Positions 16,750 to 26,414 of a DNA stretch of 26,424 bases are shown here, piece by piece; the first letter of the stretch is position 1; each line of letters begins with the position of its first letter. The notes under the pieces are model-generated. The model was not told the DNA's origin. It saw nothing but the letters and a program-made list of their open reading frames with translations, and searched no databases. Source of the stretch: a virus; IMG/VR virus record IMGVR_UViG_3300046485_000074, positions 1 through 26,424 of that record. The stretch is one strand, 5' to 3'. Both the position numbers and the translations under genes were made by a program.

Positions 16750-17228
16750 GCCGCCACCTCACGATCCGTCGTCGTGGGCGCTTCGAGCGCCGTCAGTTCC
16801 TGCGTGAGCGCCGCGAGCATGGTCCCGGCATCGGCGTGCTCGAGCTGCCCGAGGCGGCCCAGCGCGGAGACGCGCGGTTCCTGCCCACTCGCCTCGGCCC
16901 ACGCCACCAGCTTCTCGGCGAGGGTCCGCGCGATCGCCACCGCCGGCGCCCGCAGGCCCCGATCCGGGAGAGCCACCAACTCCACATCGCAGCGGGCGGC
17001 CTCCGCGAAAGGCGCGCGGACCAACGCGAGGTCGATCACCTGGCGCTCGGACGCCGCGCACGTCGCGCGCACGCGGACCTCGCAGCCGGCCCACGTCGCC
17101 GGCGCGTCGATGTCCTTGCCACCCGACCCGGCGGTCACGCGCCAGGTGAAGGCATCGCGGGTGAGCAGGCCTTCAACGTGGTAAAGAGGGGCGCAGTCAA
17201 TCGGGAACGATCGCAGTGAGTACTTCAT
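16746..17228 (-). CDS. Unknown protein between HNH and SbcC-like genes
   Basis: A 160-residue protein I do not recognise. It starts MKYSLRSFPIDCAPLYHVEG and continues as alternating beta strands (FTWRVTAG, CEVRVRATC, VIDLALVRAPF, CDVELVAL), followed by two helices (AIARTLAEKLVAWAEA and MLAALTQELTALE). It has three or four Cys residues without an obvious metal spacing. The ATG at 17228 has AGGGG 7 bases upstream and overlaps the HNH stop. Its stop overlaps the SbcC-like ATG, so it is co-translated with it. It may be an accessory subunit of the SbcCD-like complex; this is inference from position. Confidence 0.65.
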   Translation of the reverse strand: MKYSLRSFPIDCAPLYHVEGLLTRDAFTWRVTAGSGGKDIDAPATWAGCEVRVRATCAASERQVIDLALVRAPFAEAARCDVELVALPDRGLRAPAVAIARTLAEKLVAWAEASGQEPRVSALGRLGQLEHADAGTMLAALTQELTALEAPTTTDREVAA

Positions 17229-17761
17229 GCTGCAACCCCTTTCCACTTGGCGCCGTTGAGAACGTCGTAGATGGTCGAGCGTGCGACGCCGAATTGCCGC
17301 GCGAGTTCGGCTGGAGACACGGAGCCTCGAGACGCTCGGATTGTGAGGACGTCGGACTCTGTCAGTTTCGTCCCCGCCCCGCGACGCGTGTTCACGGCGG
17401 TGGTGACGGGCTCAAGGTGATCGGGATTCACACAGCCCGGATTCTTACAGGTGTGGTCCAAGACAAGCCCGGCTGGCACGGGCCCATGCGCGCGTTCGTA
17501 GTAGTAGACATACGATGACTTGTAGGTGCCGTCACGAAGACGCTTGGCTCCGGCTCGTCTTTCGCGACCGCGCCTGTAGCCGTTCCAATTCCAACAACCC
17601 GTGGATGGATCGACGGTGTGGCCAGGAGAGGACCACTTGTGCCCAGAATGGCCGCGTGCGAACCGTCGTGGCTGACCCCTAATAGCCCCCTTGCGTGGGT
17701 CTGTCACTTGGGAGATGCGAGTAGGCGTCCCGCAGCCGCATTCACACAGCCCGGCGCTCAT
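17225..17761 (-). CDS. HNH endonuclease with C-terminal HTH, probable homing enzyme
   Basis: A 178-residue nuclease. The HNH motif is LVLDHTCKNPGCVNPDHLEPV, residues ~99-119, with D102/H103, C105, C110 and H115 as the metal and zinc ligands. The Cys-rich N-terminus (CECGCG) may be a small zinc finger. The C-terminus (~133-172, LTESDVLTIRASRGSV and ELARQFGVARSTIYDVLNG) is an HTH like those used by HNH homing enzymes to recognise their site. The stretch reads less GC-rich than its neighbours. It is wedged between the SbcD-like and SbcC-like genes with ATGA overlaps on both sides. It is probably a free-standing selfish gene that entered this module. Confidence 0.88.
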   Translation of the reverse strand: MSAGLCECGCGTPTRISQVTDPRKGAIRGQPRRFARGHSGHKWSSPGHTVDPSTGCWNWNGYRRGRERRAGAKRLRDGTYKSSYVYYYERAHGPVPAGLVLDHTCKNPGCVNPDHLEPVTTAVNTRRGAGTKLTESDVLTIRASRGSVSPAELARQFGVARSTIYDVLNGAKWKGVAA

Positions 17762-20806: not shown

Positions 20807-21114
20807 CGGGACGCTCCCGCCTCTGCGGCGAGCGACGCCGCCACGAGCTCGACCAGGCGGCGAGCGGCTTTCTCAACAGACGTGGAGGACGTGGGCCAGT
20901 ACGTGGGGTGCGTGGTGGCCGGGGCGCTCGTCGGCCAGGTGGTCGACGTGCTGGGACCATCGACCACCTGGAGCGACGCGCGCACGACGGCGGCCTGATC
21001 GAACAACGCCTCGACCTGGCCGAAGCTGGGTGACTCCCCTGCTCGGTGCAACGCCTTCAGCTTGTCGAGGTGGTCGAGCAGCTCGAGGAGGTGAGTCGCT
21101 GTGGCGGAAGTCAT
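20803..21114 (-). CDS. Unknown small protein with Ser/Thr/Pro-rich centre
   Basis: A 103-residue protein: an N-terminal helix (HLLELLDHLDKLKALHRA), a second helix (FGQVEALFDQAAVVRASLQV), a low-complexity Ser/Thr/Pro/Trp segment (~54-79) and a final amphipathic helix (EKAARRLVELVAASLAAEA). The ATG at 21114 overlaps the XRE stop by ATGA with GGAGG 4 bases upstream, and the stop overlaps the next ATG. It is the second gene of the early operon. Function unknown. Confidence 0.6.
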   Translation of the reverse strand: MTSATATHLLELLDHLDKLKALHRAGESPSFGQVEALFDQAAVVRASLQVVDGPSTSTTWPTSAPATTHPTYWPTSSTSVEKAARRLVELVAASLAAEAGASR

Positions 21115-21344
21115 GCCGCCTCCTGGGGTGTGCGAATCAGGTAGCGGCGAACGGAATAGCCGAGGCCCTTGGCCAGCTTCTTCGCAGTTCGATTGGTCTG
21201 TCGCTCGCCGCGGAGGAAGCGAATGACCGTCATGTCTGAGACACAGGCACGGTCGGCCAGGTCGGCCTTGTTCAACCCGGCGACAGCCATGTCCTCGGCC
21301 ATCAACCGGATGTCGAACGCAACGCCCGAGGGGGTGGTCTTCAT
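21111..21344 (-). CDS. XRE-family (Cro/CI-type) transcription regulator
   Basis: A 77-residue single-domain HTH protein. Residues ~24-50 read LNKADLADRACVSDMTVIRF followed by LRGERQTNRT, the standard XRE helix-turn-helix. The closing helices (KKLAKGLGYSVRRYLI) complete the five-helix fold. There is no C-terminal cleavage or oligomerisation domain, so it is more like Cro than a full CI repressor. It is the first gene of the leftward early operon. It lies directly beneath a near-consensus promoter whose -10 box is inside a palindrome, which suggests autorepression. No Shine-Dalgarno is present, and the promoter would start transcription only a few bases before the ATG. Confidence 0.85.
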   Translation of the reverse strand: MKTTPSGVAFDIRLMAEDMAVAGLNKADLADRACVSDMTVIRFLRGERQTNRTAKKLAKGLGYSVRRYLIRTPQEAA

Positions 21345-21600: not shown

Positions 21601-22179
21601 GTGGACCCCGCCATCGTCGTCCGCGTGGCGAAGCAGCTCGAGGCGCGCGAAAAGAAGGGCCTAATCCGAGACGCGAAGACCCGGGCCCGCTTTATGGTCC
21701 TGGCTGCCTGCGGCCGGCGCCCGAGCGAGGTCATGCGGACGCAGCGCAGCGACGTCGACCTGGTCCGCCGGGTCTGGACGGTGCGCGACGGCAAGGGTGG
21801 TGAGTCCCCGGGCGTCTACCTCAACAACGACATGCTGGCCGCCTGGCGCGTGTTCGTAAAGGCCAAGGCCTGGGGCACGTTCGAGACCTCGAGCTTCGCC
21901 AAGGTGCTCCGGTCAGCCGGCTGGCCGAAAGCGGTCCGGCCCTACAACCTCCGGCACACGGTCGGCATCAGCCTGTCGGAGGCCGGGGTCGACCTGGCGG
22001 ACATCCAGGCGCACATGGGGCACAAGCGGATCGCGACGACGCGCAAGTTCTACGTGCCCGTGCTCTCCAGCCGGATGGAGGCCGCCAGCCGCCTCCTGGA
22101 GGGCCGACTGGGTTGGGGGGCACACATGGCCGCGAAGGCGCCGAAGTCCTCAAGGCGGGCCACGCGCAAGGCGAGCTGA
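21601..22179 (+). CDS. Tyrosine recombinase / integrase, catalytic domain only
   Basis: A 192-residue protein carrying a complete tyrosine-recombinase catalytic core: Arg in AACGRRPSEV (~R40), Lys in DGKGG (~K65), RPYNLRHTVG (R118, H119), HMGH (~H141) and the nucleophile Tyr in TTRKFYVPV (Y151). It ends in a basic tail. Typical phage integrases have 300-400 residues with arm-binding and core-binding domains before the catalytic domain; these are missing here. The start GTG has no ribosome site and the true start may differ. It is the only plus-strand gene and is divergent from the early operon. It may be a decayed integrase or a minimal recombinase. Confidence 0.82.
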   Translation: MDPAIVVRVAKQLEAREKKGLIRDAKTRARFMVLAACGRRPSEVMRTQRSDVDLVRRVWTVRDGKGGESPGVYLNNDMLAAWRVFVKAKAWGTFETSSFAKVLRSAGWPKAVRPYNLRHTVGISLSEAGVDLADIQAHMGHKRIATTRKFYVPVLSSRMEAASRLLEGRLGWGAHMAAKAPKSSRRATRKAS

Positions 22180-22938: not shown

Positions 22939-24435
22939 CTACCTCTCGAGAGGAATGAGCGCGGCGCCGGCGAGCGCCGGCGTCGTCAGGGTTGCATCGG
23001 CCAGTACCGGAAAGGCCAGTCCGTCGTCGATGAGGGCGGGCTTCGTGAGCGTCACGCCGGCGAGCGCCGGGATGGTGAGTGCGGCACGCTCGAGCGTCGG
23101 CGTCGTCAGGGTCACGTCGTCCAGGGTGAGGAGTTCAGGTAGCGGCCAGGTGATAGCCCAGAGACGCGCGCAGAAGAGCTGGAAGGCCGCCGTGCCGATG
23201 AGCGCTTCCACCGCCGTGGCGTCTAGCCTCGAGGCGGGCAGCGTCCAGCCTCCAGATCCCGCGAGCAGCTCCGCCGCGATCGCCTCGAGCGTCGCAGGAG
23301 AAAGATCGACCGCTCCGGTCCCGGCCAGGAGCTCGGCCGCGGCCGCGTCGAGCTGCGCCGCCAGGAGTGACCAGGCGCCGGATCCGAGCATGGCTTCGAC
23401 CGCGACGGCGGCACCGTTCGGCGGCGGCATCATCCAGGCGCCCGCGCCGGCGATGAGGAGATGCCCGATCGCGGAGAGCTGCGCGGATGAAAGCGCTAGG
23501 GCCGACGTGCCTCCGACGTGCAGCAGCGCGTGGTGCCAGGCGATGCGCCAGGGCGTCAGGGCGGCGTCGTAGAGCGCCACGTAGGCGAGCGACCCGCTGG
23601 CGTAGACGTACCAGCCGCCCGGATCTCCCCAGGCGCCCCAGTGGTTCGCCGGGGGCTGGCTGAGGTTCACGGTCAGCGTGTCGGTCCGCACGAACGTCCC
23701 ATCTCGGTACAGGGCGATCGTCCGCGCCGGCGAGTCGACGATCGCGACGTACTGATGCCAGGCGCCGTCGGCGATGAGCAGGTCTGTGCCGATCGCGTCC
23801 GCGGCCAGGTAGACCGGCAGGCCGGCCTCGGCGCCGACGTCGCCGGCGAACGGCCGCCCGGTGTCCCCATGCACGGGCGCGACGCCAAAGGCGAGCCAGG
23901 GGTCCGTCGCGCCGGCCTCCCGCTTGGCCCACACCTCGATCGTCGCCACGGTGAGCGGAGGCAGCGGCCCCACGCCGAAGGGCACGCCCGAGCCGACGAC
24001 GCCCGGCGTGTCGCCGCTCAGTAGCGGCCAGTAGCCCGCCAGCCTCGATTCTGCGACGGCGTCAGCGTAGGCCGCCGTGCGCCAGGTGGAGGGCAACGAC
24101 GCCACGACGGGGCGGGCCTCGCTGTAGAGCGAGAGACTGCGGCATCGCCTGGGCGCCGGCGAGAGTGCCGTGACGGCGATGCCCCGGCAGTGGATGGTCG
24201 ACGGGACGGGCGCGGGATGCGTGGGCGCGTTGCGCCCTTCACGCAGCAGTCCCACGGCCGCCGGCGGCGACAGCGTAATCGGCAGACAGCGGACCGGCGC
24301 TGGGATCTCGGGGAAGCCCAAGCCCTCGATGGCAAGACAGCGGATGACCTTCGGAATCAGGACCTCGACCCACCCCAGGGATGGGTCGCCGAGCGGGGAC
24401 ACCGCGCCGAGCTGGATCGCATGGGCGTCTGCCAC
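22939..24435 (-). CDS. LamG-like tail fibre candidate with two C-terminal repeat types
   Basis: A 498-residue protein. The central part (~125-290) has a concanavalin/LamG layout: LAGYWPLLSGDTPGVV, LTVATIEVWAKRE, GAWHQYVAIVDSPARTIALY and YASGSLAYVALYDAALTPW, the usual sugar-binding jelly roll. From ~313 to 424 come about five ~21-residue units of the form LDAxAxELLAGSGxWxL. From 443 to 492 come five exact-period decapeptides LTxPxLxxxx (LTTPTLERAA, LTIPALAGVT, LTKPALIDDG and so on). This points to a tail fibre, receptor-binding or virion surface protein. It starts with GTG and has only a weak ribosome site. No catalytic motif seen. Confidence 0.72.
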   Translation of the reverse strand: MADAHAIQLGAVSPLGDPSLGWVEVLIPKVIRCLAIEGLGFPEIPAPVRCLPITLSPPAAVGLLREGRNAPTHPAPVPSTIHCRGIAVTALSPAPRRCRSLSLYSEARPVVASLPSTWRTAAYADAVAESRLAGYWPLLSGDTPGVVGSGVPFGVGPLPPLTVATIEVWAKREAGATDPWLAFGVAPVHGDTGRPFAGDVGAEAGLPVYLAADAIGTDLLIADGAWHQYVAIVDSPARTIALYRDGTFVRTDTLTVNLSQPPANHWGAWGDPGGWYVYASGSLAYVALYDAALTPWRIAWHHALLHVGGTSALALSSAQLSAIGHLLIAGAGAWMMPPPNGAAVAVEAMLGSGAWSLLAAQLDAAAAELLAGTGAVDLSPATLEAIAAELLAGSGGWTLPASRLDATAVEALIGTAAFQLFCARLWAITWPLPELLTLDDVTLTTPTLERAALTIPALAGVTLTKPALIDDGLAFPVLADATLTTPALAGAALIPLER

Positions 24436-24439
24436 GAGG

Positions 24440-24868
24440 TCAGATCCGCATCAGCCCGCCGTTGCCTAGCGGCGCCCACACGACGGGGAAATCCCCACCG
24501 CTGGCCAGGTCCCCCATGTCGTAGTTGAAGACCAGGAGGCTGTCCGCGTCGTTCGTCCCGAACTTATAGGCCACGGCCGCGCGGATGGTCTGCCCCGACG
24601 CGAGACCGGCAAACGTGACGTCGTTCGCGTCCAGGGTCTCCACGAAGTTGGTGTCGTCACGAGTGAGGCTGCGGCCGGTGAGCGTCTGGCGCGCGTAGCC
24701 CGCCGCGGTGATCTCGTGGGCGACGATCTCAGAGACGTACTGCGCGGTCAGCGGACCGACGTAGTCGCTGTTGAGGAGCATCACCTTGTAGGTGCCGGCC
24801 GTGAGGGCGCCCAGCGAGCCATTCAGGAGCGCTTCCTTCGCGCGGGTGAACATCCAGTCGCCAATCAT
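24440..24868 (-). CDS. Phage virion structural protein of unknown position
   Basis: A 142-residue protein typical of a widespread phage structural group: a first helix (WMFTRAKEALLNGSLGALTA), TYKVMLLNSDYVGPLT, EITAAGYARQTLTGRS, then alternating strands (DVTFAGLASGQTIRAAVAYK, SLLVFNYDMGDLASGGDFPV). Such genes sit next to tail-fibre genes. The start is secure: ATG 24868 with GGAG 6 bases upstream, 12 bases after the sigma-like gene. Whether it belongs to tail, baseplate or capsid cannot be told from sequence. Confidence 0.68.
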   Translation of the reverse strand: MIGDWMFTRAKEALLNGSLGALTAGTYKVMLLNSDYVGPLTAQYVSEIVAHEITAAGYARQTLTGRSLTRDDTNFVETLDANDVTFAGLASGQTIRAAVAYKFGTNDADSLLVFNYDMGDLASGGDFPVVWAPLGNGGLMRI

Positions 24869-24880
24869 GAAGTTCTCCTC

Positions 24881-25900
24881 TTACGGCACGCGGCGCGCGC
24901 CCGTGATTCGACGTTGAAACCACCGCCACGAGGCGGCGCAGCTCCGCTCACCGCACGTCATCAGTTGGCGCCACTGGGCGTCGCTGTGTTTCGGACGGCG
25001 CACGAACACCCGCTCGCAGATGACGCACGCATGCTGGGCCGCCTCAGGATGACGGGCGAGGGCCCGCAGCCGACGCCAGATACCAGCCATCCGGGGTCGG
25101 GCCGGGTCAGCGGCGCGCACCAGCCGATGGGCGTTCCCGACGTCGGTGCCCAGGGCCTGTGCGATCGCCCGATAGCTGGCGCCCGAGTGCCGCAGCCGGG
25201 CGGCCTCCGTGCGGCGGGCCTGGCGCGCCGCGTTCGTTCGATTCTGATGGACGTTCCGACACGATCGGCTGCAGGTCGTGGCCGCCTGCCAGCGCCGAAG
25301 CGACCGGCCATGTCGAAGGATGGTAAGACCGCAGACGGGGCAGAGTTGAGGCGTAGGCATCGCGTGCTCCATGACCCGGGCGACGGCGGCCCGGACCCGT
25401 GGGCACGCGGTCGACCGATGGCCGTCCCAGTATGCGGCCTGGAGCAAGGCCCGATCCGACGGCGGGACCGCCTGTAGGAGTTCCGCGATATAGAGCGTCG
25501 TCACCATCGAATTGTCCAGGCGACGCAACGGCACCAGGCGCCCGCTGGCCAGCGTGTGCCGGCCCAGCGGCGCCGCCTCGATCCAGTCGAGGCCGCCCGC
25601 CTGATCGGCGTAGACCAGCATCGGCGCGGAGACCGCGCCCCCGCGCACGTGCCGCCGATCCGCCGGTGCCAGGATGTCCGTCTCGCGCAGGTGGTCCCGG
25701 ATCGCCCCCAGGACGTGATGCTGCGCGAAGCTCTGCAGCTGCACGCCCCGGTCCGGATCGAACCGCCGGAGGCCTCGCGCCAGGCCGAGGCACCCCGCGG
25801 CGATGACATCCTCCCGATCGGCGCCGTGGTTCATCCGCAAGTACGGATAGGCGACCCGGCGCACGAACGGGAGGTAGTCGGCCTCGGTCACGTCAGGCAC
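24881..25900 (-). CDS. Sigma-factor-like protein fused to zinc-ribbon and HTH segments
   Basis: A 339-residue frame without internal stops. Residues ~8-85 match sigma70 region 2 of the FliA/WhiG type: the helix YLPFVRRVAYPYLR, EDVIAAGCLGLARGL, RRFDPDRGVQLQSFA, then LGAIRDHLRETD before a basic stretch. Only a short region-4-like piece follows (VPPSDRALLQAAYWDGHRS). The second half (~181-339) has a zinc site CPVC (C187, C190) with C210/C214, an HTH (RLRHSGASYRAIAQALGTDV) and a second Cys cluster (CVIC, then CGERSC). An internal ATG at 25360 has GGAG 6 bases upstream, so a separate shorter product is possible. It probably redirects RNA polymerase to late promoters. Confidence 0.7.
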   Translation of the reverse strand: MPDVTEADYLPFVRRVAYPYLRMNHGADREDVIAAGCLGLARGLRRFDPDRGVQLQSFAQHHVLGAIRDHLRETDILAPADRRHVRGGAVSAPMLVYADQAGGLDWIEAAPLGRHTLASGRLVPLRRLDNSMVTTLYIAELLQAVPPSDRALLQAAYWDGHRSTACPRVRAAVARVMEHAMPTPQLCPVCGLTILRHGRSLRRWQAATTCSRSCRNVHQNRTNAARQARRTEAARLRHSGASYRAIAQALGTDVGNAHRLVRAADPARPRMAGIWRRLRALARHPEAAQHACVICERVFVRRPKHSDAQWRQLMTCGERSCAASWRWFQRRITGARRVP

Positions 25901-26300
25901 TCTTCGGCATCGTGATCTGCATCGACGTGATGGAGATCTCCGCGTGCTGGACGACCGACACGGTGGCCATGTTGACGTCGCACCCCGACGTCCCGACACT
26001 GCCATCGACCTCGGCCGCGCCCGCACTGCTGGCCGCCCGGAACCAGGTGGCGGCGCCCGTGAAGTCCGCGTCGCTGTCCTTCGTGATGGCGTTCGCCGTC
26101 GCCACACCATCCACCGCGGCGCCGAACGCCGGCGCGCCGAAGGTCAGCGTCGCCAGGAGCACCTGGTCGGTGAGCGCCGTGTTCGGCGTGGCCGGCTGCG
26201 TGCCGGTGTACAACTTCAGCGTGCCGCCGTTCAGCAGCGCGCAGAGCGCATCCAAGGCCGCGTTGGCCGCGGCGTTCGAGAGTTTCAGGTTCTTCGCCAT
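25893..26300 (-). CDS. Phage virion structural protein
   Basis: A 135-residue protein of a common phage structural type. It starts MAKNLKLSNAAANAALDALC, followed by LLNGGTLKLYTGTQPATPNT, LLATLTFGAPAFGAA, GAATWFRAASSAGAAEVDGS and an ending in ITSMQITMPKSA. Its genes cluster with tail or decoration genes. The ATG at 26300 is chosen over an in-frame upstream start because the family begins with this sequence; only AGG lies upstream. Its end overlaps the start of the sigma-like gene by 8 bases, so the two may be co-translated. Confidence 0.72.
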   Translation of the reverse strand: MAKNLKLSNAAANAALDALCALLNGGTLKLYTGTQPATPNTALTDQVLLATLTFGAPAFGAAVDGVATANAITKDSDADFTGAATWFRAASSAGAAEVDGSVGTSGCDVNMATVSVVQHAEISITSMQITMPKSA

Positions 26301-26323
26301 GTTTAACCTATCCGATGTGCTTA

Positions 26324-26340
26324 GGCGCACAAGGTGCGCC
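26324..26340. promoter_or_regulatory. Short hairpin upstream of the late cluster
   Basis: GGCGCAC and GTGCGCC form a perfect 7-base stem with a 3-base loop, 23 bases before the first late ATG at 26300. It may be an operator or an mRNA leader structure. No convincing promoter boxes were found nearby. Confidence 0.35.
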
Positions 26341-26378: not shown

Positions 26379-26414
26379 CCTGTTTTTCACACTCATGTGA
26401 GTGTGAAAAACAGG
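26379..26414. repeat. 36-bp near-perfect palindrome at the right window edge
   Basis: Two 17-base arms (CCTGTTTTTCACACTCA and its exact complement) are separated by only 2 bases. It is AT-rich compared with the rest of the window. It lies about 80 bases upstream of the late cluster. No T-run follows either arm, so it is not a plain intrinsic terminator. It could be an operator, a recombination or packaging site, or a cruciform-forming element. Confidence 0.7.

Follow-up and report, generated by a model that had tools for sequence, protein, structure and literature searches.

A solitary phage protein joining sigma-70 region 2 to a helix-turn-helix flanked by putative zinc ribbons

Introduction

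In nearly all sigma factors, region 2 is accompanied by region 4. Can a phage keep the former and rebuild the latter from an unrelated DNA-binding module? The question is raised by a 26.4-kb contig of an uncultured virus in IMG/VR, the whole of which (26,424 nucleotides; hereafter the window) was analyzed here. The contig carries a 336-residue ORF, P0001, in which a sigma factor part is followed by a tail with the layout zinc ribbon, helix-turn-helix (HTH), zinc ribbon. A sequence-only reading of the locus had described a FliA/WhiG-like region 2 joined to two cysteine clusters and an HTH, and had suggested that the tail could replace region 4 in -35 recognition and thus provide a new late-gene switch.

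Results

The single uninterrupted frame described in that reading, which did not state its strand, is found on the minus strand (Table 1); translation of the plus-strand frame over positions 24881-25900 reveals an internal stop. The length of the ORF is uninformative, as this GC-rich DNA yields spurious antisense ORFs of up to 884 aa. Because long ORFs are cheap in the contig, the case for P0001 rests on domain matches and on codon preference. The P0001 frame is favored over all others at every codon-preference window along the gene, with a weaker preference in the tail and an N-terminal sigma part that is more typical of this phage. Codon preference thus argues against a frameshift artefact.

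Table 1 Features of P0001 and its neighborhood in the window
Feature	Coordinates	Strand	Basis or remark
Virion structural protein phrog_3758, upstream neighbor	25893..26330	minus	start more likely ATG 26300
Sigma/Zn-HTH-Zn fusion gene P0001	24881..25891	minus	GTG start 25891, stop 24881-24883, 336 aa
Sigma-70 region 2, residues 5-70	25682..25879	minus	Pfam Sigma70_r2, E=1.3e-12
Linker where region 3 would be, residues 71-130	25502..25681	minus	low-confidence AF2; sigma alignment
Region 4.1-like helices (stub), residues 135-157	25421..25489	minus	weak region-4 model match
Shortened stretch at region 4.2 site, residues 158-177	25361..25420	minus	region 4.2 columns empty, MAFFT
Internal in-frame ATG, residue 178	25358..25360	minus	possible start for C-terminal part alone
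Putative zinc ribbon 1, residues 184-211, DUF2256-like	25259..25342	minus	cysteine spacing C184-x2-C187-x19-C207-x3-C211
HTH, residues 215-261, phrog_645-like	25109..25249	minus	phrog_645 profile, AF2
Putative zinc ribbon 2, residues 289-318, DUF2256-like	24938..25027	minus	C289-x2-C292-x20-C313-x4-C318; DUF2256 at 284-316
phrog_644 protein, downstream neighbor	24440..24868	minus	PHROG profile
Lectin-like Laminin_G_3 protein, probably a fibre or adhesin, downstream	22939..24435	minus	Pfam

P0001 lies between the phrog_3758 and phrog_644 genes, with the Laminin_G_3 gene beyond the latter, so its earlier placement among fibre genes was roughly right. The phrog_3758 gene ends one base before the P0001 GTG, and the weak SD context of this start (energy -2.5) is consistent with translational coupling. 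Production of a separate zinc/HTH protein from the ATG at 25360, as had been proposed, is possible and gained no support: the SD context of this codon (energy -5.6) is ordinary, being equaled or bettered by 27% of internal in-frame ATGs. Searches for RNA families and tRNAs found none.

The profile search proposed as a check on the sigma assignment returned a region 2 match well above the Pfam threshold (47.8 bits; cut-off 24). The closest families are FliA and WhiG, as claimed: the FliA_WhiG model TIGR02479 matches with E=8.2e-14, at 51.9 bits against its own cut-off of 189.6, a score that falls short of membership in the subfamily. The best relatives with solved structures are FliA, RpoH, and WhiG. 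The NCBIfam sigma70-ECF superfamily model, a broad one, scores 45.5 bits (cut-off 42.9); judged by its best match, P0001 is not of the ECF type. AlphaFold (AF2) models region 2 with a pLDDT of ~96, and Foldseek places the model on the N-terminal domain of SigE (TMt 0.79, 1.5 Å). All columns that are invariant in an alignment of five sigma factors (D28, G33, F44, A56, G62, and R69) are retained, including D28, which we take to be the acidic residue conserved in region 2.2 as a contact to core polymerase. Residues 5-70 are therefore a bona fide sigma-70 region 2, and P0001 possesses, by both profile score and structure model, the part that marks the sigma-70 family (core binding and -10 melting).

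The segment that follows departs from the sigma-70 plan. P0001 has neither a region 3 of normal size nor a complete region 4, in contrast to FliA and WhiG, and the linker at the place of region 3 contains no cysteines. A region-4 model derived from 16 sigmas reaches only 8.8 bits over residues 130-336, with a weak match at 135-157; AF2 predicts helices at 129-140 and 144-156, around this stub. When P0001 was aligned with 16 cellular and viral sigmas using MAFFT, the region 4.2 columns after the stub remained blank. Thus, of the earlier description of region 4 as reduced to a stub, the loss of region 4.2 from its usual place stands, and the stub itself is a weak but plausible candidate for a region 4.1 remnant.

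The two cysteine clusters and the HTH were likewise borne out. DUF2256 matches P0001 in two stretches with 27.3 bits, above the Pfam cut-off of 25, and ribbon 1 is similar to ribbon 2 (p=0.008 by shuffling); their cysteine spacing suggests that both bind zinc. The HTH is matched by the phrog_645 profile with E=4e-7 in the whole protein, 1.2e-7 in the C-terminal piece, and 2e-9 in one genome. AF2 run without an alignment places HTH helices at ~218-257 with a pLDDT of about 92-95; it gave no confident model for the tertiary structure of the tail, and fold searches with the tail found no significant match. One related contig encodes a phrog_645 member that has the pattern TxAARQARxxE...GxxYxxIAxxxG in common with the HTH of P0001, the two being identical at 15 of 30 aligned positions (E=0.003 for this single comparison). 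The phrog_645 score of 33 bits compares with 17 bits for Sigma70_r4_2, and HTH_38 is weak too. Since the HTH is nearer to phrog_645 than to Sigma70_r4_2, the tail looks appended, and we favor, on these profile comparisons, an appended module over a displaced region 4.2.

Two database labels touch on the tail. A match to phrog_1271, annotated as an HNH endonuclease, covers only the ribbon/HTH part and can be traced to the ribbons alone, and Pfam finds no HNH domain, so P0001 was not considered an endonuclease. The PHROGs label of phrog_645 itself, RNase E, seems wrong: the member L188 (a minus-strand ORF in G378) has the appearance of a simple HTH protein, possibly one of the small-terminase type.

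No other protein with this architecture was recovered. With the tail as query, tblastn found zero matches among 50,697 phage records at a threshold as loose as E<=1, and zero among 72,556 plasmids (E<=0.1); whole P0001 matched phages in region 2 only. IMG/VR and GTDB were also scanned, with P0001 or with its tail; these scans, which depend on a short matching peptide and have low sensitivity, came back empty. Against 296 genomes of one phylum the tail gave three weak matches, none of them in a sigma gene, and none were found in 47 genomes of another phylum and 399 of one class. The search for homologues with the same fusion, suggested at the outset, thus found none in phages, plasmids, IMG/VR, or GTDB. 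Degenerate region 2 patterns, some of them broadened by short invented variant peptides that served as search patterns only, recovered 16 viral loci with sigma-like genes, mostly of ordinary build and none with the P0001 tail. Literature searches found no sigma factor with a zinc/HTH part in place of region 4. Our searches found no known family with this domain order (sigma region 2, a stub, and Zn-HTH-Zn), which the earlier reading did not recognize either. We conclude that P0001 is a real chimera, so far solitary and confined to a single uncultured phage.

The sigma gene is also absent from 28 phage records related through the terminase (L002-L029) and from the phage contigs that contain the structural gene found upstream of P0001 (48 records taken whole; 80 loci, L067-L146). 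Many of these contigs are fragments, so that absence from any single one is suggestive only. Since it is missing from 76 phage contigs that are related or in part related, the gene is best seen as accessory and does not belong to a conserved circuit of late transcription. Among genomes, the closest terminases come from uncultured Thermoleophilia and Eisenbacteria assemblies, which gives a weak hint of the host.

Among the viral sigmas recovered with the region 2 patterns, two (L163:2429-3112 and L153:2926-3615) combine region 2 and an intact region 4, with Sigma70_r4 above its cut-off, with a C-terminal four-cysteine ribbon of the pattern CxxC...CxxC. The addition of a ribbon to a phage sigma factor has therefore happened at least once more. 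Like P0001, these proteins carry the ribbon behind a phage sigma region 2, but they retain region 4, have one ribbon, and lack a second HTH. The counterparts of the P0001 tail are phrog_645 HTH proteins and DUF2256 ribbons; none of the members encountered had them fused to a sigma region 2.

Cysteine clusters or ribbons also occur in other phage proteins. L033 (G013:13699-13812 region) and L194 encode a small stand-alone protein with a cysteine cluster, an HTH, and further cysteine clusters; in L033 it is a minus-strand ORF of 139 codons, and the terminase of that phage shows 69% identity. The layout is like that of the P0001 tail, yet homology is not detectable (E=0.35). A minus-strand ORF of 359 codons in L173 (G377), from a phage related to the P0001 phage by protease and decoration genes, carries tandem CxxC...CSxxC ribbons.

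The proposed late-gene switch found no support beyond the location of the gene. A scan for FliA/WhiG-type promoters (TAAA-N14-17-GCCGATAA) gave 16 matches compared with ~8 in shuffles, three of the 16 being one site, and none of the matches lay ahead of late operons. The search for a shared promoter motif therefore produced nothing convincing, and together with the absence of the gene from the 76 contigs this leaves the switch without backing.

Discussion

What, then, could a sigma factor of this build do? The reading we tentatively put forward, at a little under an even chance, is that P0001 is a working phage sigma-70-family protein whose -35 reader has been replaced by the Zn-HTH-Zn module. 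Region 2 would dock on the beta' clamp helices of the host RNA polymerase and open a -10-like element; the region 4.1 remnant may still contact the beta flap; and the appended HTH, with the ribbons as a brace, would read DNA upstream of the -10 element instead of region 4.2. P0001 would in this way redirect part of the host polymerase to promoters of its own, either in the phage or in the host. The strong region 2, the presence of a real HTH and ribbons in the same frame, and the loss of region 4.2 all speak for a working sigma factor. Against it stand the empty searches for fusion homologues, which leave no conservation to indicate maintenance or selection on the cysteines and the HTH, and the promoter scan, in which no promoter class emerged, as well as the low confidence of the tertiary model for the tail and the weakness of the region 4.1 match. 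The narrower proposal, in which region 4.2 was swapped for a module reading an upstream promoter element and a private promoter class results, we regard as rather unlikely.

Phages do tolerate sigma factors that lack a classical region 4: the T4 protein gp55, which supplies region 2, works with a separate flap-binding protein, gp33, that mimics sigma-4, and the two are also active when fused artificially (PMC2988020). Like gp55, P0001 would lean on region 2, with the role of region 4 supplied otherwise (PMC2988020); in P0001, however, the extra part is fused and contains an HTH and ribbons, whereas gp33 does not read DNA. A natural fusion would bear on a question raised for T4 late transcription, namely why fused late sigmas are not known (PMC2988020). 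If the proposed function is correct, P0001 would show that DNA-binding modules of unrelated origin can serve to rebuild the recognition of promoters.

The cysteine-rich tail might instead be an on-board regulator, a metal or redox sensor or a protein docking site, rather than a promoter reader. Precedents exist: the cysteine-rich C-terminal domain of CorE senses copper (PMC8999054), zinc-finger ECF52 sigmas are known (PMC5826349), and the ribbons of L153 and L163 sit behind an intact region 4. The ECF sigmas CorE/ECF238 and ECF52 resemble P0001 in having a sigma part followed by a cysteine-rich tail (PMC8999054, PMC5826349), but they keep region 4, whereas P0001 has an HTH between two ribbons. 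The CXC linker that accompanies an intact region 4 in CorE-type proteins (ECF44/ECF238) is missing from P0001, with no cysteine in 71-130, and a pure sensor would leave both the confident HTH between the ribbons and the missing region 4.2 unexplained; we consider a regulatory tail improbable. A still slimmer chance attaches to P0001 being a decoy or inhibitor used in host takeover, with region 2 holding the polymerase and the truncated region 4 blocking initiation so that host transcription is damped. An intact region 2 without region 4.2 and the accessory, moron-like character of the gene would suit such a protein, but it would have no need of two ribbons and an HTH, and the gene sits within the structural cluster and not in an early takeover region.

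Two further explanations concern how the protein came about. P0001 could be a recent or decaying chimera, formed by recombination of a sigma gene with a phage Zn-HTH gene and free of any selected function. It is a singleton in all collections searched, its C-terminal codon preference is less typical than that of the N-terminal part, and the stand-alone protein of L033 and L194 illustrates a possible kind of donor, without being a detectable homologue. On the other hand, the frame has suffered no stop or frameshift, all eight ribbon cysteines stand at ribbon-like spacing, and the region 2 columns are intact, which makes a functionless chimera quite unlikely in our judgement. Alternatively, region 4 might be split by an inserted ribbon 1, with region 4.1 at 135-157 and region 4.2 represented by the HTH (residues 233-260), in which case P0001 would be an ordinary sigma factor with insertions. 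The two halves of the region-4 model do match in order, positions 2-24 on the stub and 20-46 on the HTH, and their 8.8-bit sum was reached by none of 2000 shuffles; the NCBIfam sigma70-ECF alignment also spans residues 5-259 unbroken. HTHs generally resemble one another, however, the HTH scores higher with phrog_645 than with Sigma70_r4_2, and a helical stretch that seems to lie at 158-177, after the stub, could be the old region 4.2 recognition helix. A split region 4 thus appears very improbable, and we retain an appended reader on a working sigma factor as the preferred explanation.

Several other elements of the window were recorded in passing. A perfect inverted repeat at 26379-26414, its 17-nt arms separated by a 2-nt loop (CCTGTTTTTCACACTCA / TGAGTGTGAAAAACAGG), lies ten bases from the contig end and may be an operator, a terminator, or an assembly fold-back. 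Between replication genes, a minus-strand gene at 17225-17761, probably of the homing type, encodes an HNH endonuclease that ends in an HTH (phrog_826, E=1.9e-22). A gene at 21601-22179 encodes a 192-aa tyrosine-integrase-like protein that matches only the C-terminal half of integrase families and is possibly truncated. Finally, a strong sigma-70-type promoter match (TTGACA, 18, TATACT) is located on the minus strand at 21384-21355 and immediately precedes a small gene resembling HTH_3 repressors (21111-21344).
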